Shown one piece after another: positions 2,196 to 54,621 of a DNA stretch of 64,000 nt. Each line of letters starts with the position of its first letter. The stretch's first letter is position 1. The notes beneath the pieces are model-generated. The model ran no database searches. It saw only the letters and a list, made by a program, of their open reading frames with translations, and was not told where the DNA came from. Made by a program: the position numbers and the translations under genes. Source of the stretch: Saccoglossus kowalevskii (Eukaryota; Hemichordata; Enteropneusta; Harrimaniidae); assembly GCF_000003605.2 (NCBI RefSeq), contig NW_003108087.1:176771-240770 (forward strand), read 5' to 3'.

Positions 2196-2544
2196 ATGAC
2201 TTCGGAAGTACTACGTCCGACCGTCAGTATGGATGCTATCACTAACCCGTCGAAACCACTACAGTGCAGCAGCATGCTCTCCCCACCGCTACACCGAGGC
2301 AACTCCGCCGTATCAAAAGCCAGCGCCTACTCCATAGACAGTATACTGGGAAATCGACCGTCTTCTCCGCCACGTTCCCCTCTCTCCCGGTCACCCCAAA
2401 TAACATTGAGCAACATGGAAAACAGGCTAGGCGAGGCAGCGAGTCCGGCCGCGACCGAGTCACGGTCCGAAACGGACCGGTGTGCTGTGAATGACGAGCG
2501 AGCAACGCCGCCGCTAAACCGTGGATGTACACCAGCAATCGACG
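2196..2544 (+). CDS. hbn: hbn coding exon 1 (octapeptide exon)
   Basis: This exon encodes residues 1-116 plus one base of codon 117. The ATG at 2196 is the first Met after an in-frame stop at 2178-2180; a second Met (residue 12) is a possible alternative. The eh1-like octapeptide YSIDSILG at 45-52 is the Groucho/TLE-type repressor motif of PRD-class proteins. A Ser/Pro-rich stretch and a charged stretch follow it. The donor is GTAGGT directly after 2544. The frame stays open for 35 bases into the intron, so the junction is set by the donor and by phase matching with exon 2 (1+2 bases giving Asp). Confidence 0.85.
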
Positions 2545-5500
2545 GTAGGTTACTCACTATGATACATTCAGTGGTTTAATGTGTCCAGACAAAAGAAAAT
2601 GCATTAATTTGAAACATGTTCATTGTAAATTCGGAAATATTCTATATCACCAAATATCAAAGCGGTAAAAGTTCATCAAATTATATTTTGTGCTGGAAAC
2701 GGAATATGCGAAGTACCTGCATTATTGGCACCGCGGTGCTCATGTACGTTCAGTTCATTGACGCAGTGGTATATTTCTGTATGTGTTTATTTGTTTTAAC
2801 TAGTGACACCGGCAACAAATATACCTCCCCTGGCGTCGCTTGTTGCTGAATCCTCCGCTCAAGCCTTGCTGTATCATGTGATCTTTCCCCAGCCTAGCCC
2901 GAGCCTCCATGGTGTGCGTTCTTTCAGCTTTCTAAGCGCGGCTTTCTCGTATCATATTATTATGTGCATTGTATTTAAAACAATGATACAAACACAGTAA
3001 TTGCAAAACGTTGCGCTAATAGACTTCAGAACAGGATGCTACACGAGTGTTAGTCAAGAGTTACGACGAGTTACCGCATCACAAGCTGACGCGAACAACA
3101 CACGGGATGACGATTTGTTTTCACTGTACCCACCAAGGGACGAGAAACATACTACATAAGCGATATCATCAATGTAAATAAAATCCACGTCTTCTAGTTT
3201 TACATCCGTCAAATACTCCACCCAATTTAGTCGCTTACACGATAGTAATAATTTTATTTCTTTGTGACTGTGTACGATAGTTGCACGCACTATTTCCACC
3301 TCAATAGACACATTCAGTTTTGTCACAACTCTTAATTTGACGAATGATTAATTAATTAGTTCATTCAGGCGCCGTTTGTTGACATGATATGATATTAAAT
3401 TAATTTAATATGTCGCGTGTCTGTTTCACTACTTTGCCCCGTTTTACAAATGAGTGAATATACTAGGATATTATGCGGCATCTTTATCTCATTGTACGCT
3501 GTTCTACGTTTGAACACTACGATGTCATGTTAAAATGTGTCTATCAATCAGTGAGTAATTTTCTTTATAAGTATTTTATTTGCAGCTTTTTGTTGTGGCG
3601 ATTCACTAGTTTCAGTAATAGCCCCGATTAAACACATTACGTTTTATTCTTCAGTATTGGGCTGATAATAATATCACAAGAAATAAAAAAAATAGTTTAA
3701 TTAAACAAATCCCCCGGGGTATTAGCTGATATAGGCGGGATAATGGGCCTTTATTAACTCAATTTATTATTTGGCTATTCACTGTCAATTCCTCCCTTTG
3801 TATGCAATTGATAAATTCTCGGTTCGTTCAGAATTAATATAAACAGGGCAAACATAATGACACCCGTATTTACAAGCTTTCATCATCTGAAGTTGGAGAA
3901 TATGTATTCTATTGTATAATCTCCGTACCAGAGTGTAACACTACTATTAATTTCGCAGACGGTTTTATTTAATATTTAGTTAAATTGAGAAAATGAGGGA
4001 TAAAATGCCAGAAATTTGAGTAGGTGTGAATATTACGCGCTGACAGCTAAAACGCCATTTCAGTTACACGTGCTCGAGATGCCCCACACTGCCTGTGCGT
4101 TACTTTCAAATTATCAAGTTATAACGACGGAAGATTGCTTCCTTGTTTGTTATCTCATTAGTTGTCAAAATCTTGCGCGTCTCGTGTATATTGAAATGTC
4201 AGTTAACATGTCGAAGTTGGTTTCTGGTTGTGTCAGTCATCCACTTTTTTATTTCGTTCTCATTTCCATTCCCTCACTTTCCAGATGTCGAAGCGAAAAC
4301 ACCCTCAAGAAGCGTTAGTGGTTCCCCGGTTTGTGAACACTTATTGGACGAGAGTATTGAGGCGAGTTCCAAAGACGGCGACGATCAAAAACTAGAACCA
4401 AATTCGGAACAAGATAGCCCGTCGGAGAAACCACGAAAAGTACGACGCAGTCGCACAACGTTCACCACCTACCAGTTGCACCAATTAGAAAGGGCTTTTG
4501 AAAAAACACAGTACCCGGATGTATTCACTCGAGAAGAACTCGCTCTCCGATTGGACCTCAGCGAAGCCAGAGTACAGGTAAACAATCACAAATTTAACTG
4601 TTTTTTAACTTTTATTCTCATTTCTTCGCTGCTTTTGCGAATTTTTACGGAAGGAAACAAGTAGATGATGATTGTTTTCAAGCCAGAAATTTTAAAATGT
4701 ATAGTCATCCTTCAATAATGATAATTTTTAGCTTAGCGAAGAGTAGAAATATACGATGTACACCGTGGCAACCATTATGAATGTTGAAACGAAAGAGAAG
4801 TAATGTCTTGCCATGAAACAATATACATCATCATATAGTCTCTATGTAAACTGATAACTCTCTCAAAATGATAAAAAATATATCCCAAGAATCGCACCCA
4901 TGTATGCGCGGCGTCCGTATCAGAGAGGGGAAAGTTGATTTTCCGACCTGTATAAGAAAGCACTCTGTCTAGACTTAATTTCTTTTTTATTCCAAGGACA
5001 ATCTAAGGTACGGTCAACATCGCCTCCGGGAAACGTTATTTGACTTAATTTTTCTGTACCCTTCTACGTAAACAACACGCAAAATAGATAATTGCTGTTA
5101 AACACGTGAAATGGGCTTTGCTCTGTCGTTTGCATCCAATTTTGAAAATGTACGTCGATTCCACGGCTCCCCTGCGTCACACTCAGGTAAAATCTCAATA
5201 TTTGGACTTGCATAGGTGGATGGACGCGGGGGTACGCCATTATGCTTATGTATTATGACGTAATACCGACGTTATTACACGAAATACGGGACTGTTTTTC
5301 ATTTAAAGGTTAGTTGTCTATCTGCGACAGGGTAGAACTAGCAATAGTATGATTGGAACTTGGAAAGGAGAAACAAGTACTTAAACATTTTCTTGAATGA
5401 TCACGTAGATGGCGCCTATGACTATGGGAATATGTGGAATACTTAGACGAGAATATGTGGGCGCGTTGGAACGCAAGTCGCGTGCTTTTCCCTGTGTGTA

Positions 5501-11500: not shown

Positions 11501-13129
11501 GTATCCTGTCTTTTAGCAATTTGCGCCAATTTGAAAATCTTTTGCTTAAATTGTCGAATTCCACGTGTCAATTATCACTCCATTTGATTATCTCTGTAAT
11601 TCCCCCTCATTATGGACAATTTGGCTCATTCGCAGTGCATTCGGGCTTTCTTTCGCTGTACTTACCAAAAGGAGAGATTTTTTTCCCTATTTTTCCTGCT
11701 TGTTCTTTTTTCCCTAGTTTTTTGTTAAACGTAAACTACATGCATTGTCATGGATACGTGTTGTGTGCATACTACTGCGTTCCCGGCTACTCATCGGCTG
11801 GACTGTATAACTCAAAACCTGTTCTTATTTGATTTGAAACGCGGCATTTTTAATCTAATTCCCAGCCAGCCTATTGAGTCTATAACTGAATTAGTGGCTG
11901 TACGATTCACATGAAAAGTGTACATGCTTTTTCCATTAATACACTGTATCCTTCCTTAATTGTGGCAATTATTAGTAGTTAAAAACAAATCATTCGCCTG
12001 ATTACAGTTAAAATAGCATTTTCACGTAGTGTATTTGGGGTTATAACTATCTTTATTGGAAAAGAAAAACATGCTCACACGCGCGCCTTACTCGCAATAT
12101 CATGTTCCAGTTTGAAAACAACAATGCGGATATACAGAATGTTATTTTCAGAGTGAAACGGGCAAACGCACTGCTATATTAATTGTTCTCAGAAACGGTT
12201 TGAATAAAATATTGGGTTGTTATAATGCTTTTTACGTCATCTAAGCTCATATAAGAAGTATAAATGTATGTTTCGATAATTGTTCGTCTTATCGTTGGTG
12301 GTATTTACCAATAATTTCGTGACAAGTGCACAGGGGAACAAAACGACACTTCTTCAATTTCGTTTCTTCACAATATTATTTTTTTTTTCATACTATGTTC
12401 ACATTGAACCCTGAATTATAAAACAACGCAGACAATTTCTTTAATTTCGGTTATTGTTAATTTAATTTGTTTTCTGAGAAATATATTTAATTTTCAAAAC
12501 ATTTCACCCGATGAAAATCAGTTTAATTCCGGGTGAGAAATTTTGCTTTACTTTGTTTATAATTTTAAACTCATTTTGTACGCATGGCAAATTATCCCGG
12601 TATTGATATTTCATATTATGTTCTCTTATAGGTGTGGTTTCAGAACAGGAGGGCAAAATGGCGGAAGAGAGAGAAAGCACTCGGCAGAGAGAGTCCAAAT
12701 TTCCTATCTCCATACAATGGCGACTTGAGCCCCGTCTCTGAACTAAATGCTCATTATTCAAGTGCTGAAAGATTGTGGGCAAACAATTTAGTCGCCAATT
12801 TGCCGTATTTGACCGGTGTAGGTCCGATGCAGGCACTCACCACTCCTCGGGGGCCGTTTCTTCCAGCGCCGGCGCCCTATTTCCACGGTAAATCAATTGA
12901 TGGACTCCTGGCCAATTACATGTGTAATGGTCTCCCAGGCAGTTTGCTGACGGCGGCGGCGACGTCTTCCGCGTCGCTTCACCAGCTGTCTTCGCCACAT
13001 TCCTCACTGCCAGTCAGCGCGGTCTCACCGATAGATATAGCAGATGCATACGGAATAAGAAAATCAAGTATAGACGCTTTAAGGCTGAAAGCCAAAGAAC
13101 ATTCGACGACGTCGCTCGACAGTTCCTAA
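2196..13129 (+). CDS. hbn: Homeobrain (PRD-class homeodomain transcription factor), whole gene span
   Basis: Coding exons are 2196-2544, 4285-4577 and 12632-13129, giving 379 residues plus stop. The order is octapeptide YSIDSILG (45-52), an acidic Ser/Glu/Asp-rich linker, the homeodomain (about 169-228) and an OAR motif (about 359-371). The homeodomain opens [20 protein letters not shown] and has Gln at position 50. From memory it matches insect Homeobrain almost residue for residue, better than Arx or aristaless, which read RRYRTTFTS near the start. Intron phases are 1 and 0, and all splice sites are GT-AG. The product should be a nuclear DNA-binding protein recognising TAAT dimers. Known hbn genes are expressed in anterior neuroectoderm. 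The octapeptide resembles that of Arx, the main alternative, but the homeodomain and the rx neighbour favour hbn. Confidence 0.9.
2545..4284 (+). other. hbn intron 1 (1740 bp, phase 1)
   Basis: The intron runs from GTAGGT to a pyrimidine-rich acceptor ending TTTCCAG at 4284. Short open frames inside it look like chance. Around 3340-3420 the DNA is rich in TAATTA/ATTAAT strings, possible homeodomain sites or simply AT-rich background. Confidence 0.8.
4285..4577 (+). CDS. hbn: hbn coding exon 2 (linker and homeodomain residues 1-46)
   Basis: The exon contributes two bases of codon 117, then residues 118-214. An acidic linker leads to a basic run (EKPRKVRR) and the homeodomain from about residue 169. 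It contains the N-terminal arm, helices 1 and 2 and the start of helix 3, ending ...LSEARVQ. The donor CAG|GTAAAC at 4577/4578 leaves a complete codon. Only VNNHK and further non-conserved residues would follow if the intron were read through, which confirms the boundary. Confidence 0.93.
10668..10741. repeat. Imperfect 37-bp tandem duplication
   Basis: Two adjacent 37-bp units begin GTATTCAC and share the core GCCTACAC.ACCG.TGTAC. They differ at about seven positions. A weaker resemblance extends leftward (GTTGTATTATCTCGTTGTATT), suggesting an older small minisatellite. Confidence 0.6.
11054..11090. repeat. 19-bp tandem duplication
   Basis: The string CAAAAATGACGAGTACA occurs twice, offset by 19 bp, with near-perfect identity. 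It looks like a recent replication-slippage duplication inside hbn intron 2. Confidence 0.75.
11267..11276. promoter_or_regulatory. GTCACGTGAC palindromic E-box
   Basis: This is a perfect 10-bp palindrome identical to the extended CACGTG box bound by USF/MITF/TFE-type bHLH-ZIP factors. Two further copies lie at 14300-14309 and 14497-14506. Function is inference. Confidence 0.3.
12632..13129 (+). CDS. hbn: hbn coding exon 3 (homeodomain residues 47-60, C-terminus, OAR)
   Basis: The exon encodes residues 215-379 and stops with TAA at 13127-13129. It starts [15 protein letters not shown], the recognition helix with Trp48, Gln50 and Asn51. A Pro/Ser/Ala-rich region follows with [16 protein letters not shown] (around residues 277-292 by rough count), resembling the LPNFHTLLSQYM segment of insect Homeobrain. 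The OAR motif [13 protein letters not shown] lies near the C-terminus, with only a short tail after it. The acceptor is CTCTTATAG|GTG. The exon is unmistakable; the OAR is complete. Confidence 0.93.
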   Translation: MWFQNRRAKWRKREKALGRESPNFLSPYNGDLSPVSELNAHYSSAERLWANNLVANLPYLTGVGPMQALTTPRGPFLPAPAPYFHGKSIDGLLANYMCNGLPGSLLTAAATSSASLHQLSSPHSSLPVSAVSPIDIADAYGIRKSSIDALRLKAKEHSTTSLDSS

Positions 13130-13260
13130 ACGAGGGTGTTTCATTATCGGAGAAAGCTTTATCCGGACTATCCTTTTTCAGGGAACAAGCACTCACGTAG
13201 TAAATGTAGTATATAGTATACTTAATATATATAAATAACGTATGGGTGGTGTAACCGCAT

Positions 13261-13300
13261 CGTACCGAGTACTGCAGTAGCGTACCGAGTACTGCAATGG
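13261..13300. repeat. 20-bp tandem duplication in the hbn 3' flank
   Basis: The unit CGTACCGAGTACTGCAGTAG is repeated immediately with two mismatches near its end. It lies about 130 bp past the hbn stop codon, probably within the 3' UTR. Confidence 0.75.
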
Positions 13301-13768
13301 TAGAAGAAAAGTACCACTACGCCCTTCAAGTTCCGTCGCCGGGACTGTTGGTAGCTCATCCGGAGTGCCCGAAAGGAAACTGTGATCAAATGTTGGGATT
13401 GTTGTTACCATGGTATATTGTGTCAATTTCAGTGTACTTTTATAGAATTTGTTTAACACTCAATAATACCCTTCTCAAGTTATACGTACAGCAATTGCGA
13501 TTGCAGCAATGTAGTCATTACGCCGAAATGACAATGGGGGCGCTATAGCACCAGTGCGGCTCAAGAACTCGGTTACTGAGTGTCCATTTTTGTTTGCGGC
13601 CAGACTAGTTCACTTCAAAATGTAACATTTCTCTCAGGCCTTGGTATGCGTTTCATTCCGATTTTTTTTCCTGCTTATATTTTCAAACTCGGTGATACGT
13701 TAGTACAACTTACACAATCTGTTTCGACAGAGTTCACTAACTTCGCTAGTGAACGTTTGAAATTGAGA

Positions 13769-13774
13769 AATAAA
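13769..13774 (+). terminator. Candidate hbn polyadenylation signal
   Basis: This is an AATAAA hexamer 640 bp after the hbn stop, the first canonical one I found in that flank. It would give a 3' UTR of about 0.66 kb. AATAAA is common in AT-rich DNA, so this is a guess that transcript ends would settle. Confidence 0.3.
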
Positions 13775-14298
13775 CCGCAGGGGTGTCTTAATGAAAAGAT
13801 GGTATCATCTGAAAATGTGTAATTTATTGGGAAGTAATAATAACCTGTGTGTAGATTCAACTTTTGCAAGCAACTAGTCGGGTCGTTTCCTATCACATTT
13901 TTCCAGATTTTCAAACCAAATTTACCCGATATCACATGTTATTCAACGCGTGCGTTAAATTTATTAATTCCCAACAATTCCCAACTCAAAATTTAAGACA
14001 AAATGAATGAATCTATTATATGCTCACTGACAAATGCTCCGGGGGCAAATTGTTTACACAAGTTGATTTATAATTCAAAAACCACTTTCAAGGTATAATT
14101 TTCTACATGAAAACCGCCAGGCAACTTGAAGGTGCCGACAGCGCCTCTCAATATATCAAAATAAAGCATCAACTCAATATGATTGCATTATGATGATATT
14201 CTATCTGGTAATTTGGCAGTTGATCCATGACGTCATACATTCACACGTGTCGTTTTATTCGGTATTAATTTAGACTGATTTGCCGAAGGGCGTGCTAG

Positions 14299-14310
14299 TG
14301 TCACGTGACA
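14299..14310. promoter_or_regulatory. TGTCACGTGACA palindrome
   Basis: This is a perfect 12-bp palindrome centred on a CACGTG E-box. A second copy of its 10-bp core (14497-14506) lies 197 bp downstream with a partly similar left flank (GGCGT.CT.GT), so the two may be an old duplication. Confidence 0.35.
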
Positions 14311-14496
14311 TCAATAGATGAAATTGTTAATTTCCCCTTTTCAGACCGATGCGATTACATCTGATTGGTTTTGATCTATTTAATAACACGGGCATCAAGT
14401 AGCGCATGAACGAACATCGCCACAATTTCATTTTCCTCGCTAGGTTAAAGGCGGTGTTATAATAGATAGTGTCTCACACCACCGCTAGGCGTCCTC

Positions 14497-14506
14497 GTCA
14501 CGTGAC
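14497..14506. promoter_or_regulatory. GTCACGTGAC palindromic E-box
   Basis: Third exact copy in the window of the extended E-box palindrome, preceded by GGCGTCCTC, resembling the flank of the copy at 14299. Confidence 0.3.
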
Positions 14507-15753
14507 ACGGAGTTAGACAGTGTTGACCATATATGGAAGATCATTCTGTATATCTGGGCTATTAAATATGGCCGCCAACGCAGGAATATTGTAACTATAC
14601 TATGGTAGATTTTTATGTAAATATAGGAATATTAACTAAAGTTAAGGCCATTATTTTGCATATATGAGGTCACCGTCGATATACGGTATCTAAGTTATTA
14701 TTTTGTGCAATAAAATGTTGTATGACACATTTATTTTCGCGTTTTTCTTTTTTTTCCCACACAGATATATATCATTCTAAACTAGTTGAAGAGAATTCCC
14801 AAAGTAAATCATTATCTCAAATTGTTGATAATAATTTCCATTTTAAAAAGACAGTCAAAGAAGAAACAAAATTAGAATTAAGTGCAGTTATTGTGAAACG
14901 GTCTGCACTCCGAGTAGAATGTACATGTCTATATTTACAAAATATGACAATTATTCGATGTATACTATTACGGGCTGGAAAAATATCTGTGAATTTGAAA
15001 TTATGATTTTGCGATCCCACGAGATTAGTGACCTATCGCGCAGGTGAAGGTCAAATGCGCATGCGTAGTACCCCTTTGGCCGCCAGTTACTGAATGCCTT
15101 GTTTTTATCAACATTTGGGGGGTTATAATTTAACGTGGACAAAACAATGACGCGCTTATGTGACCCATGACATGATGCATTAGTTAATTTCACGATTGTG
15201 CGACGAACAGTTGTAATTAATCTGACTAACACACGATATATGCAAAGCCGTTTTTTAAACAACTCTTATCCCATTTATTCATTTTGTTATAATTGAATAT
15301 CATGTATAAGTACTCAGAATTTATGAACCAGGGTGATATCAAGAAAAATGTGTCAATATTCATCTTGACAAGTCACTATAAATAGTAGAAAATGAAATTC
15401 ATCAGTTCAAACCAACATCAGTTCAACACCAAGCAATCAAACCAATCAGATAGCAGCTTTTATTGTTTGTTGACATTTTGATTTTTGACGTATACAATTC
15501 GGCCTTGCATATATGCTTCGACACTACTGCTATGTGAGGCTAAATATTGGTCCCCGAGTCGCGAGAGTTTAAATGACGGGTGATAAGAAAATGACATCGC
15601 TTGCGTTTAACTTTCCAAAAATAACAAATTAAAAAAATTTGATTACGAGACCCTGTGTATTGATACAAATTGTGATTCGTCACTGAAAAAGTGAAAAAGT
15701 TTCCCACTAATGGTTTTGTTTTATTTTCTATATTTATTGAATAGCGCAGTCGT
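14507..15753. other. Intergenic DNA, nothing identified
   Basis: AT-rich sequence without a convincing exon. A single CCATATATGG site in the context TTGACCATATATGGAAG (14523-14539) resembles one unit of the minisatellite at the right end of the window. A GCGCATGCG palindromic core occurs near 15056. Confidence 0.5.
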
Positions 15754-15838
15754 CATGTGGCGCGCGTTCAAGTAAACAGTATATTTTGCACGCGTTGTAC
15801 ACGTCGCATGGAACTCACATCGAACGCTACGTGTTTTG
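15754..15838 (+). repeat. Dispersed CpG-rich repeat, copy A
   Basis: This copy aligns by eye with the copies at 19871 and 23151. Shared blocks in order are CATG.GGCGCG.G, GTATATTTT, CACGCGTTGTA, ACGTCGCATGG, then ATCGAACGC and ACGTG. There is no coding capacity and no recognisable tRNA or 5S boxes. The family is unknown to me. Confidence 0.55.
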
Positions 15839-18119
15839 AAAAATGTTCCGCTTTAAATGACAAATCAGAACTGTGTAATTAGACCCTTAAACGGACAGAC
15901 TAAATTCCGCAAAAATGATAAAAAATATTGCCTTCAAATAATTAAATTAATTTTGTCTATAACCCCATAAAACGTGAGTTTAGTTATACAGTCTAATAAT
16001 GGTATCTCCATATAGATTTACAGTCGAACAACTCCCTTTCTTGTCAATCAGATGGCTGCCAACTAACGACAAATTCAATAAATATCCGATATAAACAAGA
16101 TTCTAAAATAACTAGCAATGGTTTTGCAAGCTTAATCTACTTTCACGATATATTATACTATATTAACACAGGGTTCCAGACTGTATGCTTATATGTTTTC
16201 ACATTTATCGACATTTTCCGCCAATAATGATAAAAACTCGATCTGGGACTAAATTTAAATGAAATCAATCATCAACACAGTCTTCAATAATAACACGGAA
16301 TGACGTGCACTTGGTAATTTGAAAGCAAATTATGTTCTCTCGCTACAACTCTAGTTAACTTCGCATTTATTGCAATCACAGAGCGTAATCAATCTAGCTG
16401 TAACTCAAACAGACTTAATAATGACGTAAAACAAGTTGAAATCTTCCTAGCTGCACAGTACTTACAAATCGGATTAGTTTCGTGTTCAGTTGTTCGATAT
16501 AATTTTTTTTTTTGAACAAAATTTCAGCCATGGAGTTTGTTAAACACTGCTTCTATTATTGGGACATTGAAAAAATAATACTGCTAAAATTGTTTGAAAT
16601 GTTAATGAATTAATTCGATATGAATAAATAGTTGATTCTTTTGGGCTCAGTAAATCTGAAATGAATACAAACGGACGAACAAGTTGGCTTTCTACCAACA
16701 ATTTGAGGGGCGTCCATTAAATATGGCGAGGAAGTCATATTATGCCGTAAACACTTAAAAATAAGTCCCGCGTTCCAACGGACATACAGGTCTGTCATTG
16801 CAGGGGTATTTTTAAAAATACAGCCAAACCTGTTTATAGTGGCCATCCTGAGGTACTTCATTAAAATGTTTTTTTTTTTTAAATAAACAAAGCAAAGCAA
16901 AGCATTGATATAATATCAGAAAAATGATGTTATGTTGCAAACAATGACAATAAGAATTTAAAAAGTTGATTAAGAACAAAATAAAATAATTTTGACACGG
17001 GGAACTTGATCAGATTCGCCTAATAATACGAAATACATCACATATGTGAATTGTAATTTGGAACAACAATTGTCTTCAAGATTGGTTGAATTGTATTAAA
17101 GTAATGCGGTTGTCTCCCTCGCCAAAAACCAAAGAACGATTCTGTCTGATATTCACTAACCATCGTTTGTTTTTTGGCATGCGCCCTCTTAGTTCTTACA
17201 AGACGTTTTCGAGTGATTCTATTAGATGCTCTGAATGCAGAGTGCTACACACCTGCAGTATAAACGAAGTAAACCGCGTACCACACCACATGTTATCAAT
17301 CGCAATTTCAACATTTCAAGACAGAAAAAAACAACGATTAGACCCACACTTCTCCACGTAACGCACTAATTGGATACACGCTGGTGCCGCAGTCAGCGCA
17401 TATGAAGACGACTGGTTTGGTTTAAAAGTATACGTCCTTACGGTAAAACATATAGTATGTTAGCTAGCCCGCTATATTCCGCTAATTCATTGTTGGAATT
17501 TTAGCTAAATTAAGATCCTATTCATTCGCACATTCAGCAAAATACACTTAAAAATTACATGTTTTGGAATTTTACGCACTCCTCATCCGGTGTGATAAAC
17601 ATCTTTTGACGAGCTTTACCAGTTGCATCTCCACTGCTGCGTGTGTATTGTATAATCGTAATACACTTTAATTTATGAGCTGTCGATATGTATTTCACAG
17701 CCAGGCAGAAAACCATTAATTTGGGAAACTAGCTTAAAATATAAGCGCATGCCAACAAGAAACAGAGTTGAGCATCTCTGTGAATACAACCACTGTTTGC
17801 GTCAGTGTTCAGTACACGATTGGATTGATTAAAGCCAACTTCGAAACCAAAATAAAGAAACTGAAAATAATAAAACACATTGATGCTGTTGGCAGTGCAA
17901 CAAACAAGAAACTATGCGAACTCACTGCCAATTACCTACAATCAAAGCAACGGGGGGCGCAGTCTTTTTTGTAAGCCACTGTCACCAACAAAACTCTGCC
18001 GATTCTTTTAGAATCTCCGTTGTTGATGGTTATTATTATTCGCTTCGCTCTTTTTGCACAAGAAGCAAAAAAAAAAACTACTATACGTTAAATTGATTGG
18101 CAGGGTGCCCGACGCTAAC
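15839..18119. other. Intergenic DNA, nothing identified
   Basis: AT-rich DNA with scattered short open frames that resemble no family known to me. No repeat, RNA gene or strong palindrome was noticed. Confidence 0.5.
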
Positions 18120-18660
18120 ACACACTGGTGTATAAATGGGCTAATTAGTCACGTGGGCTCTGTTCTCGGACGGGGTCCCGGTCAGCAACACTAATCGCCA
18201 TTCAATGTAGTTTACATTCGTACTAATTAAGGAATCAAACAATCGTTTAAAATGGTAAAAAAACATAAATACTGAAAGCATTCATTTGATATGCTGTCTC
18301 TTCTTGAATAAAAGATAGCTTACCCAGTCAAGTAGTTTGTCAAACTATCCCCGATAGTGTTTAATTCGTTCGCACCCGTATGATTTGGACAGCGAGGCTG
18401 CGGGCACACACCACGAAGATGTACGTGTGGTGGGGGTTGGGTGCACTCAGCCTTAACGCATGGTCTTTACTAAGGAGTGTTAACATAAACAGGAAAATCA
18501 ATGACTGCTTTCAACTAATTAATATCCCCTAATTAGGCCTTGAAAGGGGAGAAAAAGAGGGCTGCATTAGCGGTGAAGAGGGCGGTCATTTTGTCGCTAA
18601 TGGGGCGACGAACGGTCAAAGAGACAACAAACTGAATTAATTTACCGAACACTCTTTCTC
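18120..18660. promoter_or_regulatory. Candidate cis-regulatory region with TAATTA sites
   Basis: Four TAATTA cores lie in about 400 bp, at 18142-18147 (CTAATTAG), 18224-18229, 18516-18521 and 18530-18535 (the 10-bp palindrome CCTAATTAGG), with further TAAT cores near 18190 and 18596. TAATTA is the core bound by Q50 paired-class and other homeodomains. The intervening DNA is less AT-rich than its surroundings. It lies 5 kb downstream of hbn. Enhancer function is inference. Confidence 0.3.
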
Positions 18661-19549
18661 TTGTATTATTTGCTCGACTGAACAAACACAGGGTGAGTAG
18701 TGGGAAGCATTATGTCTTCAATGATTTGTTGGTATGTCATCGGATAAGCTGGCCTTGCACTGTCTATCTTTTTTAGGTGAACGTGCAAACATTTGTGGAA
18801 TATACAAATAATACAATTTGAAAATAATAATATAATTCATGCCGATGAACCAACAGACTATTGCTCGTTCAGATTAGGTGTCAACAGACCAATGAGCCAA
18901 TTAAATACCACATTCCGTCACTCGTGCTATGACGTCACACTGAAGGAAGCTACAGACGACTCAGACCATGTATCAGCATCTTTAAGATCTTTCTCCAGTC
19001 GACACTTGTTGGCATTTAAATGGTTTCAGCATCTCTGTAATGGTTTCTCTTCATTCTCATGGAATTTGTCAATTACCTCCCACCGGCACGCTGACGGTTT
19101 AGCTAAGGGCGGGAATTTTTGCTGTAAGAAATCAATAGATTGTCCATCGAGCAGCGGGAGATGTAACGTCCTATTGTTGGGTGCTATTCAATTTTCAATA
19201 TAGTCTATGGGGACAATTCTTTGCTCTTCAATCCCCTTAATGCGACGTCCTTGGGGACCATTCCGAATGCTAAGTGTCAAGACAAGTAGAAAAGAGATGT
19301 TAGACTACATTTATTTAGCAAATTTTCTTCATAGTTTAAGAACTTGGATGAAAATATCCCGCCCTTTAAGTGCGTCGTTGCATTGCAAGAACAATTTAAA
19401 AGTAAACAAACACATTGCGACGATTAAAAAATAACGAGAACGCATTCTTATTTAGTGACATGGGCGTCGGATAGTACTTGTACAGTGAGCAATGAATTGC
19501 AGATTAATACGCCACACTAATCACATCGATCGCGTTACGATATTATATT
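18661..19549. other. Intergenic DNA with a 136-codon open frame of no recognised family
   Basis: The frame at 18793-19203 (+) is long for this window, but its composition (many Ser, His, Phe and Cys) and lack of any motif suggest chance. No splice context or neighbouring exon supports it. Confidence 0.4.
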
Positions 19550-22246: not shown

Positions 22247-22248
22247 GA

Positions 22249-35497: not shown

Positions 35498-35523
35498 AGT
35501 TGGTAGGTCTGATTCTACCAACT
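35498..35523. repeat. Perfect 9-bp inverted repeat
   Basis: The arms AGTTGGTAG and CTACCAACT surround an 8-base spacer inside the CpG-poor block. This is a small hairpin of unknown meaning. Confidence 0.6.
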
Positions 35524-38137: not shown

Positions 38138-38400
38138 ACACCAATAAAGACTACACAAGTTGTCTTCTGAATCTTTGCTTAAATGACATCGACTTGGTGA
38201 TATATGGCATTGCATTCCACTGGTAGGTACAACTGTGAAAAAGAAGGAATTGTTGCTGCGCAAACCTGTGAAATAGTCACTGATAATTTCTCCCCGGTGG
38301 TACAAGATAATCTGCATACTTACAGAATAATGCCCATGCAACTGTTTCATCTAACTTGTCGTTTTCCACTAAAGCCAAAATTAAAGAGAACTCGACACTA

Positions 38401-38422
38401 AATAAATCATTAATGATTTATT
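38401..38422. repeat. Perfect 22-bp palindrome
   Basis: The sequence AATAAATCATT is followed directly by its reverse complement. Each strand therefore carries an AATAAA hexamer, and the centre is CATTAATG. Confidence 0.85.
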
Positions 38423-38715
38423 AAAGCGGTTGCACATTTCAATTGCCGGGCTCTTCATATACACTGCAAGTTGGAGGACAACGCCAAGATAACAATAGGA
38501 AAAGATCAAACAAAAGGTGGAGACAGATGGCATGTTTGGGAGGACCAAAACTAAAATCATGCATACATTTGTTTTTACTAGAATGTCGTGAAAGTTATCG
38601 GACCAGTTACTGGTCGGCTACTTCAAGTTGGTTACTTGCGTACTATAATACCATTTTATTGAATTTTATTTTCGGTATATCTCATTTCATGTCTGGTACA
38701 ATTTTCGTGGGCTGT

Positions 38716-38797
38716 ATGGCGATTTTCCTGTGACCGCCGGCGAAATATGATCGCCATTCTGCGCGGCGTCTGCTTGGATAGGTCGAACTAGACGCCG
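38716..38797. repeat. Two adjacent perfect 8-bp hairpins
   Basis: ATGGCGAT (38716-38723) pairs with ATCGCCAT (38750-38757). CGGCGTCT (38764-38771) pairs with AGACGCCG (38790-38797). The patch is G/C-rich. It could be a remnant of an inverted-repeat element or a structured RNA; no evidence decides. Confidence 0.5.
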
Positions 38798-40985
38798 ATG
38801 AGGCGCTTAAGAATACAAGGCAATGACACAACTATCGGAAAATTTGTTTCAGCTCTCCATATTTGTAAGTTTCCACGTTATTCCAAATATGGTTAGTAAT
38901 AATAACATCGTCCACTTGCACGGTTTCGCATCCGTTCATCCATCTATCAGCAAACTGCAGCTGGAACATTACACCTTGCAAATTCTACATGTTGTAACAA
39001 CAAATTTACTAACGGTGGCATTACCATTAATAAGCGCACCTCTTTTAACAACGTACGTCCAATAAAATGCTTTAATTAAAAGTCAATCATCGCCAGAGAA
39101 AACCAGTCACTTTTTACCGTTTTGGATCCCGATTTCTAGTTCCCTTTCAAAATGACGTTCTATCTTCAATTTTGATTTGTTTTGATAACATAACCCGCAT
39201 CGCATTCCCATTATCCTCTAGCCATTTAATAATCGAGTTGTATTTTTATTTTATGTAGAAGCTAAATAAATAATATGTGCGCAATTACTACTGAGATAAG
39301 TTTCTTGTAACCAATGCTTTGTATGAAATGGATCTTACATAAATTCATCTGAAATAGGTATGTCGGGTATAATCACGTGTAGTCGGAGAAGTCATGTGTT
39401 AGGGTTGACAAAAACAGCAGATCTATCAAACTTCGAAGTAGTGTATAATTAAGCATCTTGGGCGAAAATAATGACGTACTCGCACGTCAGTATAGTTGTT
39501 GAATACCATGGTAACGTTATGTTACAATAGCTCAAGATGTTGTATCACGTGATGAAGACATATTCTCTTGGACCGACTGAGATGTTAGTGTCAATATTTC
39601 GAGAGATCGAATCGCTCTTGCCAGATTCGTAACAATACTAGATCATTTCGAATAGCTGTACTGGTTGTGATCAGCATATTGCACTAGTATAGGTAGTCTG
39701 ATTGATGCGTCCGCGTTGGCAGATAAAGATGTCCTCCCTCATGAACCACTCACCATCATCAGCTGACCGGTTGTCCAATTTGCAAAACCCGGCGCCACAG
39801 TTCTTGCTTATCGTCTATAGCAAGTACTTCAGGCTGATCGGAAGCCCTCCCCTCTTACCAATTTTCCATTGATTGACGATGAATGAGAAGCCTCCTCCCA
39901 CTTTCACACACTGGCATTAAAACTGAGTAGTGCACAATACGGCGCTAATAGGCTGCTTTCGGACGCTTAATAAGCGCTGCAACAGCAGTCGAAGTCAGAA
40001 ACCTCGACTATTTGGGCAGCTTGAGTATTCATACGACACGCTATATATCCCTTCCCCTTAGCTATATACCGAGATCAATGAAACTGACCCTTCAATGGGT
40101 TTTCATGCGTTGATCAAAGACATTGTTCTGGAACAGACCTCTCCGTTTATAAGGAAAAAAATCACAGCATTCCATTTTCGTATTATGTGTCTTGGCCGGC
40201 AGTAAACACGCCGGTTCGAGTCGGATTGACAGATTTGGAACGAGCTTGACAAATAAAGCTGACTGGGCTAAAGAGACCGCAATTAAGAACGCCACGGTGC
40301 AAGCTGCCTCGAGTCTTGGGGCAAGGCGGGTCACTGTATACAGGAGAGGATTGGGAAACGTTTAATTTATGAAGTGGCACCTAAGTTATTCATTCGTTCT
40401 TCACCTGCCGGTAAGTTGAAGGTGCGATCAAACTTGCCCGGGTAAGGATAATGCCAACCCACGAGGCAGTCGCTTTACCAGATGTCCACTGTATACTCGT
40501 TCCACTAAACCCTTCTAAGACGTGGTTATAGAGTTTGTTCTTGTGTCGACTAACTTATTAATCTTATTAATATTCCCAACACGACAAATATTAAGGTGTA
40601 ATTTGTCTATCTTCACAAAGCTGTCTCTAGATTTGCGGGGAGAATTTTGGGGCATTTCCAGTAATAACGGGATGTCATAGAAAAGTAGTAAAAGGGAGTG
40701 GAGATACGGGATCACGGTTATGACTGATTATGTGATAGACTTTTTCTTGATATTATATTATGCACATGATGTAAAAATTAACCTAATTTTCGCCATAGAA
40801 ATTAATAATTTAAAATAATTATTAGTTAAATGTTTAATAAAAAATAAACAACAGATTCTATGCCAGAAGGGAGTGTGCGTGAAGATGCGGCAATCGTACC
40901 AGTCAACAACGTGTTGCGGGCATACTACTATATCAAGAGTTATCTTCTAAAACTGCCAGGTTAATTTGATTTTGTTAATATATTT

Positions 40986-41110
40986 ATTTTATTTTATTTT
41001 ATTTTATTTTATTTTATTTTATTTTATTTTATTTTATTTTATTTTATTTTATTTTATTTTATTTTATTTTATTTTATTTTATTTTATTTTATTTTATTTT
41101 ATTTTATTTT
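40986..41110. repeat. (ATTTT)n microsatellite
   Basis: About 25 uninterrupted ATTTT pentanucleotide units, followed by GCCGCTG. Perfect identity suggests recent expansion or homogenisation. Confidence 0.97.
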
Positions 41111-44100
41111 GCCGCTGAAAAATAGTATATATTAATAACGGGGGTTTAGACTGATGTGATCTGTTACATGGCAGGACAGTTGACATTCTACTACGCTTTC
41201 CACACAATCGAATAGAAATGAGAAATTCGCTCGTAACACATTCTAACACGTCTGCAACGTTTTCTAACACGTCCGTAGGGTAATTTACAGACGAATGGGT
41301 GTCATCATTCTCACCAGTGACTTATGTAATTATCTTCAATATTTGACATTAAAGTGCTGAGCAGCTCCATGTGTGATGCGAGTAATTTAATAATTTGTCT
41401 GTACATGAAAAAATATTTTTATGATTATGAAAAGTAGGGATTTCTTACGCTGTGATATTGTAATATTGTGTGGAGTTTCTCCCATAGTATTCGGTCAACA
41501 TATAAGACCATCGCGTCATTTCAATACAGTTTGCGGGAGCCGTGTAATTGAACGCAGATTAATCACAGATGAATCGCCCCACCTCTGACAAGACTGTGAA
41601 CACATTCAGCAACTTACATAACTCCAATATGTGTATGTCGTCTTTTAGACCATTAACTGCGAGATCCCGCGTTTTGCGTGAAACCGAACTTAAAAAAATG
41701 TGCTCAGTATTTTCTATTTCTGTGGCAGACGGACGGGTCTCGCCTTTCACGCAATGTGCGAGAAATCTTACAGTGAACTAATGCTCTTAATAGTCACCAA
41801 GTGATTAATTCTTTTTCTAACATCAATATATAACCCAGACAAACACATTAGATATCTCAGTAATGATCACTTAGTTTATTCCATTCCAAAAAATGTTTAA
41901 ATAATAAAATTCCTTCCAAATATACAGTAAAATACTTATTTTTTGTGATACAGAAAACAGTATTTAGAAAAACAAAAATATACAGACAAAAAATCGTGGA
42001 CTTGTATTCTGTGGTCGCTTATGAAAAAAACAAAACATGCAATGACAGTCGATTATGGCATTTTGGGTAACACCGTATTAAAACAAATACAGTGATTCTG
42101 TTGGTTTTTCAAAACAAATAACGGTAGATTAATGAACCCCGATTCGTTAAAAGATGCATTTGGATAATTATCTATTTAATATGGCAGATTTCTTTTTATT
42201 GGAGGGATATTTATAACGATATATACAATGTGGCTCATGTTCAGCATTTAATCGTTGATGTAGTGAATGTCGGCATGACCAGGTTTTATAATCAAATAAA
42301 AATATCGATACTAAACACTAAATACTTGCCAACCAATTTGAGTTCAAATGTATCTACGAACATTTTCTCGACAAACTCAACATCTATTGTCAAAAAGACA
42401 TTGGATTTGTATGCGTCTCTCGAACTAAGCACATAAATGTCGCGTCGTCTCGCGAGATTTAGCCCCCGTTAGGGAAAACAAACTATGACATTAACTTTGT
42501 CTTCTATTTTCACTTCTCCTGAATAAAACAACGGCCAATTGGCCGGGTTATGTTGCAAGTGAATGTATAAGCAACATAACTTGCACCTTTCACTATCGGA
42601 ACCCTTCATGCAATATGCAGTCGCCGTCCGCATCCTGTTGTACTCTATGCCCAAACACCAGTGGGTTGGTTAGCTTTGGTTTGAAGTCGTGAAAAACCGG
42701 TATCAAATATTACTGAGTTCGGGCTTGCCTGGAGAATGTATCACTAAAAATACTGTTATTTTCGCTCTTAAAAAATCTGAATTACTACGAAAATATTTGA
42801 ATATAAGAATGACCTCAAGTCCTTGAGTTCGCCGTTGAATGAATGTCGATTTCTTGAACTTAGTTTCTCATCGTTTGCCAATTTCCTGTCTATAATTTGA
42901 AGGGTTTCTTGTACTATATGTCGGTTTCAATAAATGACACGTCGTATTTCATCCGCTTCGACGATAACTTCCTTTTTAATGAAACCTCCATATTTTAGTT
43001 GCCTAATACCCTATTCCCGTATTCCCATCCACCTTTCCCGACAATCCCCAGAAGGCGAAATCGCCTCCGCTAATTGATCAGAAACTTCCGGTTTGCATGC
43101 ATGTCTAGATATGAACATGGTATATGTATTTCCTGCTATGAGTCCATTCCACTCACATTTTTAATTCCTTTCTGAAATAAGATTTTTTTTTTGAATTTTT
43201 TTTTGCTTGGCGACATTTTACTATCGTTCTCCCCATACTTGACAATCGTATTTCGTCAAAGACAGAAGATGGTGAAAATCAAACTGGTTTTATTAAATAC
43301 TAAAAATGTTGAAGACTCACATTATGCTAGATCTTAATCGGACAATGTTTTTTTTTATCTAATTAAGGATCATGTTCATTCTGGCTTTCTCTTCCAATCA
43401 GGCGGTTTAGTCACTTATTCATTGTCCCAACTTGTCAAGTTCTGAAACTGGACGCTTGTAATGAAATTAAATAAACCCGATTTTAAAGTTTACAAGTCTG
43501 GCTATAATTTTATTTAAAGTTACCCGCAGATTAAATAAACAAATATGGCAGTATCAAATATGTTATTAATGCAAAAATGGCATTCAGACGAAAATATGAT
43601 CAGGATATCCCTTCATCAAAAACTAGAATCTCGGGTATTCAAACTAATTACGTCGCTGTTTTCTGTTATTATTGACGCGGGTGCATGTTGTTCATCGACA
43701 AGTCGTCGTATGAAAACGATAAACCCATAATCCATTACAACTAATGTTGTGCCTTATGGCAAATTAATAATCATTAAATTTGCATTTCGGTCAATTAACA
43801 ATATTGCAAAATTCTCTTCATTGAACTATAGACCTCTCGGTTTTCATACGTTAAACAAATCGACGTAATTGTAGTATTGTTCATTTCCGATCTACTGTTC
43901 TTTACAATGACTATTTTGATCAGCTGGGACCTGGCACTCACGAAGGGATGGTATTGATGGGTATTCATCCAAAGACAGCTTGGAAGATGGATGGGTTCTA
44001 TCTGTTTTCAAATTCTCGTTACAATAGACTGCATAGACATCATTAAATTACATTATTCGACATATGCATTAAATAGTGTCATGTGTTAAGAAGCCATTTG

Positions 44101-44435
44101 TGTTAACATATAAATCCTTGCATCACCCATTAGTCATTTCGGGCCAGTATTTCTTATTGACTATGTTGTATGACTTTACTTTCTTACATAGCTCAAACTG
44201 CTTAGCCATTATGCATGTACTTATATATATATATAAAAAATAACCTTTTCTAAAATATACAGTGCGGAGGGTTCAATTTTCTTACGTAATCCTTTGCCAT
44301 ATGTATGAGTAAAACTAACTAAATGCCAAAATACACGAGAGTTTGCCATTTGTACACATCTACGTTGTTCAAACAGTGATCGTTGCCACCCTATCGTCAA
44401 TAGCGCATCAAAACCACCTGTTCACCCAGCATGCA
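41111..44435. other. Intergenic DNA downstream of rx
   Basis: This is the 3' flank of rx (minus strand). No exon is seen. The nearest canonical polyadenylation signal that I found for rx is TTTATT on the plus strand at 43509-43514, about 0.9 kb past the stop codon. Confidence 0.45.
43509..43514 (-). terminator. Candidate rx polyadenylation signal
   Basis: AATAAA on the minus strand, about 920 bp after the rx stop. No closer canonical hexamer was noticed. It is a weak inference in AT-rich DNA. Confidence 0.2.
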
Positions 44436-44927
44436 TCAGTGAGCTACATCATTTCCGCTTTGCCAAGGCGTTTTTCCGAGATTCTCTATATGTTCTTTTG
44501 CTTTCATCCGCAGAGATACGATGCTAGAACTACGCGGATCATTGTCGTCTAGTTTATGATCCGAAGTCGGCGAGGTCGGCGGTATAGCAGTGACGGTAGT
44601 GGGGCTGATGGAACTTAGTTTTGGATTCAAGTTGATTGACCCTAGCGTTGTGTTAAAGTTCGAATTGAGGGCGGTTGACGTCGGTGGCATGAGAGGATAA
44701 GTAGAGATTCCCGGACCTAGTTGAGGCAGGTAACCGGGCAACGCGTGAACTGCGGTGGTATTAGCAATAGGTGGAGTAAGCCATGGATCCATGGGCAAAG
44801 CGTTGCTGTAGTTCGCAGGGGCGTGGTTTCTCTGCAGTGCTGTCATCGGATACTCCTGCAACTTCATCTGCTGTGCCTCCATCTTCTCTTGACGTCGCCA
44901 CTTCGCTCGTCTGTTTTGAAACCATAC
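44436..44927 (-). CDS. rx: rx coding exon 3 (homeodomain residues 47-60, C-terminus, OAR)
   Basis: The exon encodes residues 191-353 and ends with TGA at 44438-44436. It begins [15 protein letters not shown] (Trp48, Gln50, Asn51). Next come a Pro/Thr/Asn-rich region with [14 protein letters not shown] and ALPGYLPQ segments, and the OAR at about 323-336. The acceptor is TCCCTCCACAG directly before GTATGG. The open frame runs a further 45 bases into the intron, but those residues are not conserved. Confidence 0.95.
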   Translation of the reverse strand, partial: VWFQNRRAKWRRQEKMEAQQMKLQEYPMTALQRNHAPANYSNALPMDPWLTPPIANTTAVHALPGYLPQLGPGISTYPLMPPTSTALNSNFNTTLGSINLNPKLSSISPTTVTAIPPTSPTSDHKLDDNDPRSSSIVSLRMKAKEHIENLGKTPWQSGNDVAH

Positions 44928-50900: not shown

Positions 50901-53900
50901 ATATGCATAGAAAACTGCAAATTATTTTATTTTCCTTAACATATTGTATTTTTGTGCTGTTATGTAGGCAAAGAGGCCATGCACACAGCGAACCAAACGC
51001 ACTGCTCATAGATGACAATGCATTCGTGACGAAGTCGTGAAAAATGCAATAAACACCGTAGAATGATGTATTTATAAACACATTGAACAGGTTTCTCCCG
51101 ACTGAGCCAAATTACTACCATCGACAACTGCTTTTATTATTGCCTATACAAACGCGATATTCTTATCATCAATTGTTAAATTATAGCTGTATATCGATAC
51201 ATTCCCGCTGTCTCGCCACGCCGTGAAGCTGAGCGGGAGAGAGACATTTCTATGGCCGCAATAGGAGTCGCCCACCGCGAAGTCACGCTGCGATACTCTT
51301 ACTAGACGGGGAGATTGTCGAGGGAAATAGGGCAATCGTTCTTACGAGTATACCTCATTCCCAGGTTATAAATTATGGATGGGTATATAAATAATAGAAG
51401 CAACTTGTTTTTATTATCTCAATTGGTCTTCAAACGGTGAGGTGAACTCCAGAATTGTAATACACATTGTTCGACACGGTAAGCGGAGTCCCCAGGTCCG
51501 TCCACATGGTCCACAGAAATGTACCCTTGCGTATGAAATAAAACGATAACCAACCACGATGTGTTTCGAAAATGTATGTATGTTCATATTACTCCTCTCT
51601 TCCGTACACCAGTGTAATCTCCCAACTAAATAGTTTCAAGTTCGTATCCTTTCTATATCGAGCTTGAAATTGTATTTCTTTTCTTTTTTTCTAGTGATTA
51701 CAAAATTCACTAATCCACTTTGCAGGGGTTTAACTACCTTACCTCAACCACCGACCTTAAAGAACGGCCAGAAATGAATGGTTGAGCATTTAATGTTGAT
51801 GGAATTGGTAATGGGTAGATTTAATTGCAAAGAATGATATTCAAGACACACATTGTAATATTAAGTAATGGCCTTTACCTGCACTCGTACTTCCGGCAGG
51901 TTTACTTTTAGCGCCAGTTCCTCTCGACTATACACGTCTGGGTAGTGACTCTTCTCGAAAGCTCTCTCCAGTTCGTGAAGCTGAAACGTGGTGAAGGTAG
52001 TCCGATTTCGGCGGTGTTTCTTTTTTGGCTCGTCCGAGTTATTATTATCGTTGCCCATCGAGTCATCGTGTGAGTGCTTCATATCTTCGTCGGAACTGTA
52101 ACCCAACTTGTCGTTATGCTCACTCCGCTCACCCTCGTCTGTCGCTGAAATGTTAAATACCATGTGATGGTGAATGTGTGACCCTATCGCACCCTTCGGT
52201 ATGATACGGTAGTTAAGTGACATCAGTTGTGCTGTTTGGGAATTTTACAAGACTACTACATGGGCTGCATGCTACAAGAACTATTTTAAGGGAAAGGGAT
52301 AATTTCAAACTAAAATTCAATTCAAGATGCAGGTGACTAAAGCAAATAAATAAAAACTGCTCTTGCACATACTAGTATTACCGCGTCATAGTGCCACTTA
52401 AGAATATATTATGCAAAAAGGGGTCATGATTATGACATTCTAAATCACCAACCAGATAACTCGGTATAAAGTAAAAACTTCTGAATTAGTTCAATATTAT
52501 TTTAAACTTTTTTCACATCGTTTTGTGTTGGCATCTTTAAAAATCTCAGGCAATATTGCACCCGTGTTGGGTTAACCCTTGGCATGGTATCGCTTACACC
52601 CACTTCATTGTCATCGTACCCAGTGATATCTTCATCTGCAATAATATATTTGGATGCTAAAAAGAATTAAACCCGTCCAAAAATGCAGTTTAAACATGTT
52701 TTAGTATATATTTACTGTAAAATATTCAACTCAGAAGAAGGCAAAAGTAAAATCGTAAAAGTGCTTGAGAAGTATGCATCTGGGACGTCATGTTACCTAT
52801 TACCGTGCCATGCATTGACGTGGCATCGCTTATAACGAGTACATGCACTCCATCGTATACTGCTTTCCGTAGCCACCTATCTTAGTAACTTTGTGCATCG
52901 GCGTAGAAGGGATAGTCATGCATATACGCAAGAAAAACATTGCACTTAGAACGATAACATCGATGGTAGCTGTAACAGCTCACTGGGGGAGAGACCCGGG
53001 GGATTCGAGGGATGATACTGACGAGATTTCGACGCCGCCTGACTGATCGGTCGATTCTGTTGTATTTCACGTTCGTAACTACCCAAGCATGGGGATTGTT
53101 TGTATCAATTTATTGTTGTTTTTTTCGTGCCGTCCTACAGTGAGTATGCTTGGAGTATACGCAATACTGACAAACATTTAGATGCGTTTCAGCAGGTCGA
53201 AGCTTCCAACCACCCCCATGTGTACATGCCTGAGTTTTGAACCATATACAAGACAGACGCGTATTACTACCGAACTAATTCAGTATTCCCCACTATGTTA
53301 TTTACGACTAATTAAGGAAATTGAAAATAGAAACACACATTTGATAATAAATGTTATCATATCACCAAAGTTATTTTTCAACAAAATATCCACGTCGAGG
53401 GCACGGAACTCGCAACATGGACCGGTTAAATTGTTGTTGACAAACTTTAATTGTAGCCGGGTATCTAATCTAATCACAACACGTATCATCTACTAATAAT
53501 TTTATTATACGATGTATATTTCACTTCGTCATTTCATAAAATATACCATAGCCTGCTTTTAGCTGCAAAGGATTATGACGAGTCGGAAAACCGTGTATCC
53601 TACTCGGGGCCAGCTGCTCGATATTTCCGACCAATTCAAATGGTGCATGACCGGTTGTCAAAATCCAATTTTAATAAATATTTTAATAATATTTAGGAAA
53701 ACGCAATTTACAAATAGCCCCAATACTGGTGCAAATGAAGGTCAATAGTAAGGGTGGCTCGTCCGGTACAATCCGTGGTATCGTGTTGGTGAGTTGTTGT
53801 CTGAAACGTACCGATCGACCACACTGCAGCAAAGACCATGTCGTTGTTTTTCAACATTACAATACCAGTGGTATTTCTTCGTTCAGGTTCTTTCAGAAAT

Positions 53901-54621
53901 AAAACAATGTTTTTGTATCAAGCTAGGTTATAACTCTAACGGAGGAATCTTTTTTGAGGAGACAGTTTTAGATAGTTTTGTTTACGAATTTGTAATCCCT
54001 GGGACAAGAACTCGGAAATGCCACCAAGCGACCTTACGAATGGTGTCTAGAACAACTTATCTAAAACCGTATTTTATAAGATAATGCCTAACCTCGAAAG
54101 AAGCCACATATCGCCCCTAAACCCAACGAAAATTTTGGGACTAGCTAACATTGTTGGACGTGGATTGCGTCAATTAAAAGTGTTATAAAAAACAATTGAA
54201 TAATAAACACTACACACGTGTACATTTCATCACCAAAACAACTAGCGAAATGTGTGTAGTTTGAGGAGAGAAGAGTGGAATGGTGAAGTAGTTAAAAATA
54301 AGGTAAATATGACGTACATGTGACGTGTTCCTCTTCCAACATACTGTACTTATCGTCACATAGCGTGTTCTGTGGAAGGGGTGACGTCGTGACATCTTCG
54401 ATGGGACTGCTTACGCCGTTACTCCCTTCGTGTAGTATATTGTTCATCTCTTTCCTACGGAAACCGAGGCCCAGGATAGCGTCTATAGAGTGGCTCGGAC
54501 TGCTGTGGCTTGTCGGAGGGCATGCCGGCGTGTTTGACGTCCTGTCTCCCGCAGCGAGGCAAGCTCCGTCGCCGTTTGCATTCGCTAACGGTGATGTGAC
54601 GGAAGCCGGGGCAGTGCTCAT
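44436..54621 (-). CDS. rx: Retinal homeobox protein Rx (PRD-class), whole gene span
   Basis: The coding exons, in transcript order on the minus strand, are 54621-54318, 52144-51879 and 44927-44436, giving 353 residues plus stop. The octapeptide HSIDAILG is in exon 1. The homeodomain (about 145-204) starts [20 protein letters not shown] and continues [20 protein letters not shown], a near-perfect Rx signature also found in vertebrate RAX. The tail after it, [15 protein letters not shown], and a PMDPWLTPP segment are Rx-like. The OAR motif [14 protein letters not shown] is at about 323-336. Intron phases are 1 and 0, as in hbn. The product should be a nuclear transcription factor; the family acts in eye-field and anterior neural development. 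Confidence 0.94.
47029..47051. repeat. (AT)n microsatellite
   Basis: About eleven AT dinucleotides inside rx intron 2, flanked by AAATATAAAT-type sequence that extends the AT-rich tract. Confidence 0.85.
48442..48455. repeat. 14-bp perfect palindrome
   Basis: TACTACGCGTAGTA reads the same on both strands and lies in a locally less AT-rich part of rx intron 2, 15 bp before a G-rich stretch. Confidence 0.7.
51879..52144 (-). CDS. rx: rx coding exon 2 (acidic linker and homeodomain residues 1-46)
   Basis: The exon contributes two bases of codon 102 and residues 103-190. It starts [11 protein letters not shown] and passes through an Asp/Ser/Asn-rich stretch to [10 protein letters not shown] and the homeodomain, ending LPEVRVQ. 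The donor is CAG|GTAAAG. The acceptor AACATTTCAG precedes 52144; a second CAG six bases further in (exon start 52138) would also keep frame and remove two residues, so alternative tandem-acceptor use is possible. Confidence 0.93.
52145..54317 (-). other. rx intron 1 (2173 bp, phase 1)
   Basis: The donor is GTACGT after 54318 and the acceptor TTTCAG at 52145. Nothing coding is recognised inside. The open frame at 53182-53496 (+) has no family resemblance. Confidence 0.8.
54318..54621 (-). CDS. rx: rx coding exon 1 (octapeptide exon)
   Basis: The exon encodes residues 1-101 plus one base of codon 102. ATG at 54621 ([10 protein letters not shown]) is the only Met codon in frame before the octapeptide; upstream in the same frame I read no ATG before a stop at 54741-54739. 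[15 protein letters not shown] is the Rx-type octapeptide with its usual downstream GF. The chosen donor GTACGT fits consensus and gives the phase that exon 2 needs. A possible acceptor (CTTTTGTGTACAG) at 54655 suggests that the 5' UTR could be spliced. Confidence 0.85.

Follow-up and report, generated by a model that had tools for sequence, protein, structure and literature searches.

Homeobox genes of the window

A stretch of 64,000 nucleotides (C257:176771-240770; hereafter, the window) from a scaffold of 889,210 bases, C257, contains two genes of the homeobrain-rx-orthopedia (HRO) homeobox cluster, namely, homeobrain (hbn) on the plus strand and rx on the minus strand. The third member, orthopedia (otp), was found on the same scaffold, with its stop codon 196 kb past the rx start (C257:427320-435472, minus strand). 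The gene order on this gapped scaffold was hbn> <rx <otp ... isl>, where isl is islet. The first-pass annotation of the window had assigned hbn and rx to the HRO cluster, and the presence of otp on the scaffold bears this out. It had also reported that orthopedia was not seen, which is correct for the window, whose end simply falls short of the gene; its view that the third member was missing was mistaken, since otp lies on the rx side of the scaffold, where it had proposed to search first.

The first bases of the hbn and rx start codons (2196 and 54621, respectively) coincide with the ends of the region delimited in that annotation. Each gene was found to consist of three exons; hbn ends with its stop codon at 13129 and encodes 379 amino acids (aa), and rx ends at 44436 and encodes 353 aa. 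All four introns had GT...AG boundaries and kept the reading frame, and the intron within the homeodomain was located at an identical codon in both genes, splitting RVQ from VWFQ. The hbn product matched the Pfam Homeodomain family with an E value of 1.5e-24 and the OAR family (PF03826) with 1.8e-5; the corresponding values for rx were 1.1e-23 and 1.2e-7. These gene models and domain matches are far beyond chance.

Identity of rx and hbn

Homeodomains of the two genes were placed in two trees. Tree 1 contained 28 rows, five of which were reference sequences without an accession, and tree 2 contained the 23 rows left after these five were dropped. The genome contributed 18 homeodomains, which were chosen among the fetched paired (PRD)-like ones and not from all 95 matches of the whole-genome homeodomain search (150 of 209 candidates scored). 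Since the alignments comprised 47-61 columns, many inner branches of both trees had no resolution, as was expected at such a length. Additionally, the genome was compared with Nematostella peptides translated from the primers in Table 1 of Mazza et al. 2010 (PMC2938728), the Hbn peptide comprising 31 homeodomain residues.

The Nematostella Rx peptide agreed with the window rx at 27 of 29 residues and with the next genome homeodomain in the comparison at 15 of 19. In tree 2, the window rx and Nematostella Rx paired at 97/93. The LPEVRVQ-type homeodomain, octapeptide and OAR motif that characterise Rx proteins were all present, and the minus-strand gene is identified from its predicted product as rx.

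The Nematostella Hbn peptide was identical to the window hbn at all 31 residues, whereas the best of the 17 other genome homeodomains compared reached 15/18 and 24/31. The window hbn grouped with Nematostella Hbn and the reference Drosophila Hbn at 96/87 in tree 1 and with Nematostella Hbn at 97/91 in tree 2. In tree 1, the approximately unbiased (AU) test rejected a group of the window hbn with the genome's own Arx and the reference human ARX (p-AU 5.4e-7). The predicted protein also carries residues regarded as diagnostic of Hbn, DLSEAR among them.

Some similarities pointed the other way. When the genome was searched with the reference human ARX homeodomain, the window hbn ranked first (83% over 46 residues), and the two were identical at 52 of 61 positions. 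A sequence search of PDB with the window hbn placed ALX4 and aristaless on top, and none of the best 60 of 82 chains was named homeobrain. Nevertheless, the genome contains a separate Arx-like homeodomain on another contig (C1272:127324-127443). The identification of the plus-strand gene as Arx was therefore rejected on the grounds of the complete Hbn peptide match, the trees, the AU tests and this separate Arx-like homeodomain. The gene groups apart from Arx, Al and Rx, it has both an octapeptide and an OAR motif, and its predicted protein is that of Hbn, not Arx. Consequently, the two names proposed in the first-pass annotation from diagnostic homeodomains were supported by the gene models, Pfam, the Nematostella peptides and the trees, and the Arx grouping that it had raised as an alternative was not obtained.

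The Arx-like homeodomain lies near the end of its contig of 127,493 bases, and its frame leaves the homeodomain after FTR. This break reflects either an assembly fault or an intron placed differently from the one in hbn, rx and otp.

Orthopedia, islet and SCAMP on the scaffold

The genome-wide search returned four homeodomains on C257: those of hbn and rx and two more at 435183 (minus strand) and 666046 (plus strand). The homeodomain of the former agreed with the reference human OTP at 57 of 61 residues and paired with it at 88/94 in tree 1, and an OAR motif was found in the last exon (E 1.5e-8). An Otp homeodomain with an OAR tail was thus present, with weaker agreement to the Nematostella peptide (see below), and the predicted protein identifies the gene as orthopedia.

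The best solved relative of the islet product was ISL-1 (E 9.8e-36, compared with 2.3e-13 for the next). Isl was linked to the HRO genes on C257. The SCAMP gene on this scaffold possibly reflects an otp neighbourhood shared across deuterostomes. Because C257 makes up 0.155% of the assembly, which comprises 4830 contigs, the chance of linkage to hbn and rx is approximately 0.0016 each for otp, Isl and SCAMP, assuming that genes are evenly spread.

Table 1. Features of the locus. Positions are those of the window unless prefixed with C257.
Feature	Position	Strand	Remarks
hbn coding exon 1	2196..2544	+	start codon; GT donor after 2544; gene model
hbn octapeptide YSIDSILG	2328-2351	+	by eye in the translation; exon 1, near N-terminus
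hbn exon 2	4285..4577	+	first part of homeodomain, 4443-4577; intron after RVQ codons
hbn exon 3	12632..13129	+	remainder of homeodomain; OAR motif ~13058-13108; stop
hbn-rx interval	13130..44435		no recognisable gene; 50-base assembly gap 32198-32247
rx exon 3	44436..44927	-	remainder of homeodomain; OAR motif ~44540-44487; stop
rx exon 2	51879..52144	-	first part of homeodomain, 52013-51879; intron position as in hbn
rx exon 1	54318..54621	-	start codon; gene model
rx octapeptide SIDAILGL	~54489-54466	-	by eye in the translation; exon 1, near N-terminus
otp last exon	C257:427320-427883	-	includes GTSIAQLRRKALEHSV; OAR motif
otp homeodomain exon	C257:435186-435472	-	homeodomain search match at 435183
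SCAMP	C257:562300-564395	+	4/4 genome matches, all on C257; beyond otp
islet	C257:663596-666387	+	LIM, LIM, homeodomain

Intervening DNA

The stop codons of hbn and rx face each other across 31,306 bp, in agreement with the tail-to-tail orientation and the distance of about 31 kb given previously. In the window, 30 of 61 open frames with a length of 90 aa or more were scanned against Pfam, including all 23 that lie wholly between the two stops, and none of these 23 frames matched a family. Rfam gave no match in the window.

The rx start and the otp stop are separated by 195,928 bases, and 63,213 of these are N. In C257:240771-440000 there are 58 open frames that reach 105 aa, frames with N or YLFI repeats being excluded; a few of the 58 lie in or beyond otp. 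Ten of them, all between rx and otp, were scanned. Matches were found to galactose-3-O-sulfotransferase, DNA polymerase phi, ZU5, leucine-rich repeat and reverse transcriptase families, and the other five of the ten had no Pfam match. Close spacing without other genes was therefore observed for hbn and rx and not for rx and otp: the genes within the second interval separate otp from a pair that is still tight.

Long AAAT and TTTAT microsatellites were present at 22250-22541 and 40983-41110 of the window. The AAAT array yields long YLFI open frames, and similar frames recur past the window. From 63254 to 64000, up to the window end, a 32-base unit was repeated in tandem (23.4 copies, 81% matches); its repetitive open frame belonged to no Pfam family.

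Other contigs of the assembly

The names Gsc, Otx, Arx and Hox for other homeodomains of this genome are provisional labels. Off the HRO scaffold, two PRD homeodomains, one Otx-like and one Gsc-like, are separated by 41 kb (C2916:647461 and 688963). According to the oyster paper, both Otx and Gsc show linkage with HRO in oyster as well as in amphioxus. A contig of 10,208 bases (C2714) showed six homeodomain matches with regular spacing and alternating strands (88+, 1941-, 3878+, 5943-, 7762+, 9818-), a pattern suggestive of an inverted pair of homeoboxes repeated in tandem. At C4455:13120-15526, four matches fall within approximately 2.4 kb, three of them in one frame of 1098 residues; this is a multi-homeodomain gene.

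On the mitochondrial contig, C4830, cox1 was found on the strand opposite nad1 and cox2. TGA was read as Trp, ATA occurred at conserved COX1 Ile sites and AAA at conserved NAD1 Lys sites; one AGA was found at a serine site, and no AGG was found in cox1, nad1 or cox2. In the flatworm code AAA is Asn, and in the cnidarian code AGR is Arg; neither fits this contig. A brachiopod source was rejected on the mitochondrial code, and a cnidarian or echinoderm source on AGA=Ser (one codon) and AAA=Lys. The posterior-type Hox homeodomains of the genome also look ambulacrarian. Reading ATA as Ile is characteristic of ambulacrarians, AAA=Asn is specific to echinoderms, and Saccoglossus uses AAA for Lys (PMC2697986); relative to Balanoglossus, COX1 is inverted and ND1 or ND2 is transposed in S. 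kowalevskii (PMC3121625). The contig thus has hemichordate mitochondrial traits (ATA=Ile with AAA=Lys) and the Saccoglossus-type cox1 inversion.

Assessment of the cluster

With high probability, C257 carries an HRO cluster that is stretched but intact, accompanied by its usual companion islet, in an enteropneust of the Saccoglossus type. Several observations weigh against this reading. The stretch from rx to otp is interrupted by N gaps, five large and one small, so the linkage rests on scaffolding. No first exon was found for otp. The Nematostella Otp peptide agreed with the genome otp at 15 of 20 residues and with a fragment on contig C1502 at 13 of 17, which is slightly higher as a fraction, and the placement of Nematostella Otp had no resolution in either tree. 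The identity of otp is therefore based on the OAR exon and the reference human sequence. In tree 2, the AU rejections of hbn with the genome's own Arx (0.041) and of hbn with Arx and aristaless (0.019) were modest. Three neighbours of human OTP gave nothing on C257: TBCA (a tubulin chaperone, also near amphioxus otp) had no match genome-wide, so that this zero says little; AP3B1_C had none genome-wide or in any control genome, which is equally uninformative; and none of the 11 genome matches to Adaptin_N lay on C257.

Comparison with known HRO clusters

The published layouts below are taken from the cited papers. In the Nematostella cluster (PMC2938728), rx is the middle gene, encoded on one strand together with otp, while hbn is on the opposite one and the facing hbn and rx stops are 3,437 nt apart, so that the three genes, their order and all three strands are as on C257. 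It differs in extent, being 34 kb compared with at least 256 kb here (excluding otp exon 1), and its otp-rx interval is 12 kb, whereas that on C257 spans 196 kb and contains other genes. The same gene order occurs in Drosophila, honeybee and flour beetle, but there otp is on the other strand, and the fly intergenic distances are approximately 17 and 21 kb (PMC2938728). In Lottia and oyster the three genes are also linked, in oyster with Isl syntenic; unlike here, the order is otp-hbn-rx (PMC2938728 for Lottia), and in oyster other PRD genes are interspersed. Spiders and tick share the Isl linkage (PMC10726417), which is reported for beetle, oyster and snail as well, whereas spiders have the order R-H-O and a duplicated Rax (PMC10726417).

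Among deuterostomes, the sea urchin, probably a fellow ambulacrarian, has an hbn-rx pair approximately 22 kb apart, but the two genes have the same orientation, and a different scaffold carries otp (PMC2938728). Amphioxus rx and otp are linked at a similar distance (approximately 162 kb) with SCAMP nearby; hbn was reportedly not found there, and SCAMP is one of seven genes between otp and rx, together with an N-acetyltransferase and a tubulin chaperone, whereas on C257 it lies beyond otp (PMC2938728). Close spacing without other genes is seen in Nematostella and some insects and not in mosquito or amphioxus, and is not strictly defining.

Centipede Rx and Hbn overlap in opposite orientations (PMC4244043). 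Given the facing stops in Nematostella and the opposite orientations in centipede, the tail-to-tail orientation on C257 is not unusual, and the opposite-strand, facing arrangement known from other animals may plausibly be ancestral. The first-pass annotation had considered the orientation and the missing third member informative about cluster evolution; what the locus does inform is the ancestral arrangement.

Proposed function and maintenance of the linkage

In the proposed mechanism, hbn and rx would be transcribed toward each other over the gene-poor 31-kb interval; otp would follow in the orientation of rx at a distance of 196 kb, with ordinary genes and retroelements in between. Each of the three would encode a homeodomain transcription factor patterning the anterior ectoderm and brain. 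This is suggested by the glutamine at homeodomain position 50, the octapeptide of hbn and rx and the OAR motif. Apart from the apical pole, the whole proboscis (prosome) ectoderm of Saccoglossus expresses rx, whereas otp expression is punctate in the proboscis and collar (PMC2938728, from Lowe et al. 2003). The tight hbn-rx pair may be kept by shared or interleaved regulatory DNA, and otp may be held only by slow long-range linkage.

The alternative that survives best is that the linkage reflects inertia only, with no shared regulation and no functional meaning of the tail-to-tail orientation; its probability falls only slightly short of one half. It agrees with the presence of ordinary genes and retroelements between rx and otp, with the single strand of urchin hbn and rx (PMC2938728) and with the dispersal of the cluster in the sea spider, where only Isl and Rax are together, and its partial dispersal in the snail. 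It accounts less readily for hbn and rx staying close here with no recognised gene between them, for their spacing of 3.4 kb in Nematostella (PMC2938728) and for their overlap in centipede (PMC4244043). Interleaved regulatory DNA would be the preferred explanation for hbn and rx, although the balance against simple inertia is about even.

A true break of the cluster, with otp on C257 through a scaffolding error, is improbable. The 63 kb of gaps between rx and otp, the fragmentation of the assembly and the location of sea urchin otp on another scaffold are in its favour, but a single contig of 4830 holds otp, Isl and SCAMP, all of which show linkage with HRO genes in other animals (PMC10726417, PMC2938728), and a random misjoin would not choose them. 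Least probable is a chance Arx-rx neighbourhood with an Arx or aristaless-like gene on the plus strand, given the Hbn peptide match and AU rejections described above.

Significance of the locus

The cluster is of a kind already known, and the C257 locus is a new example of it. No description of hbn-rx-otp linkage in a hemichordate was found among the titles, abstract openings and passages of the literature searched, and otp, rax, hbn and HRO are not used in the main text of the 2024 hemichordate chromosome paper (PMC11175523). A recent sea-anemone genome paper names the cluster in its reference list only. According to the oyster paper, HRO was also detected in deuterostomes, with citation of Chipman 2014, Mazza 2010 and Ferrier 2016, so a deuterostome HRO cluster may already have been noted; the table of Chipman 2014 (PMC4244043) names insects, cnidarians and molluscs.

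In Mazza et al. 2010 (PMC2938728), the HRO cluster was described in Cnidaria and Protostomia and was not identified in deuterostomes. It was stated there that linkage in Saccoglossus could not be assessed without an assembly, and assemblies from echinoderms and hemichordates were expected to reveal how much of the cluster the deuterostome ancestor possessed. Provided that the genome is indeed a hemichordate one, C257 supplies this test: the three HRO genes and Isl are linked, in the order and orientation of Nematostella. Tentatively, and with a probability clearly below one half, hbn> <rx <otp with nearby Isl and SCAMP may be the cnidarian-bilaterian ancestral layout, kept in a deuterostome without a change of order or strand, the hbn-rx interval being an inversion-resistant shared regulatory block and otp drifting outward. 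If the layout is indeed ancestral, the inversion of otp in the fly, the gene order in molluscs and the strand change in the sea urchin would be derived.

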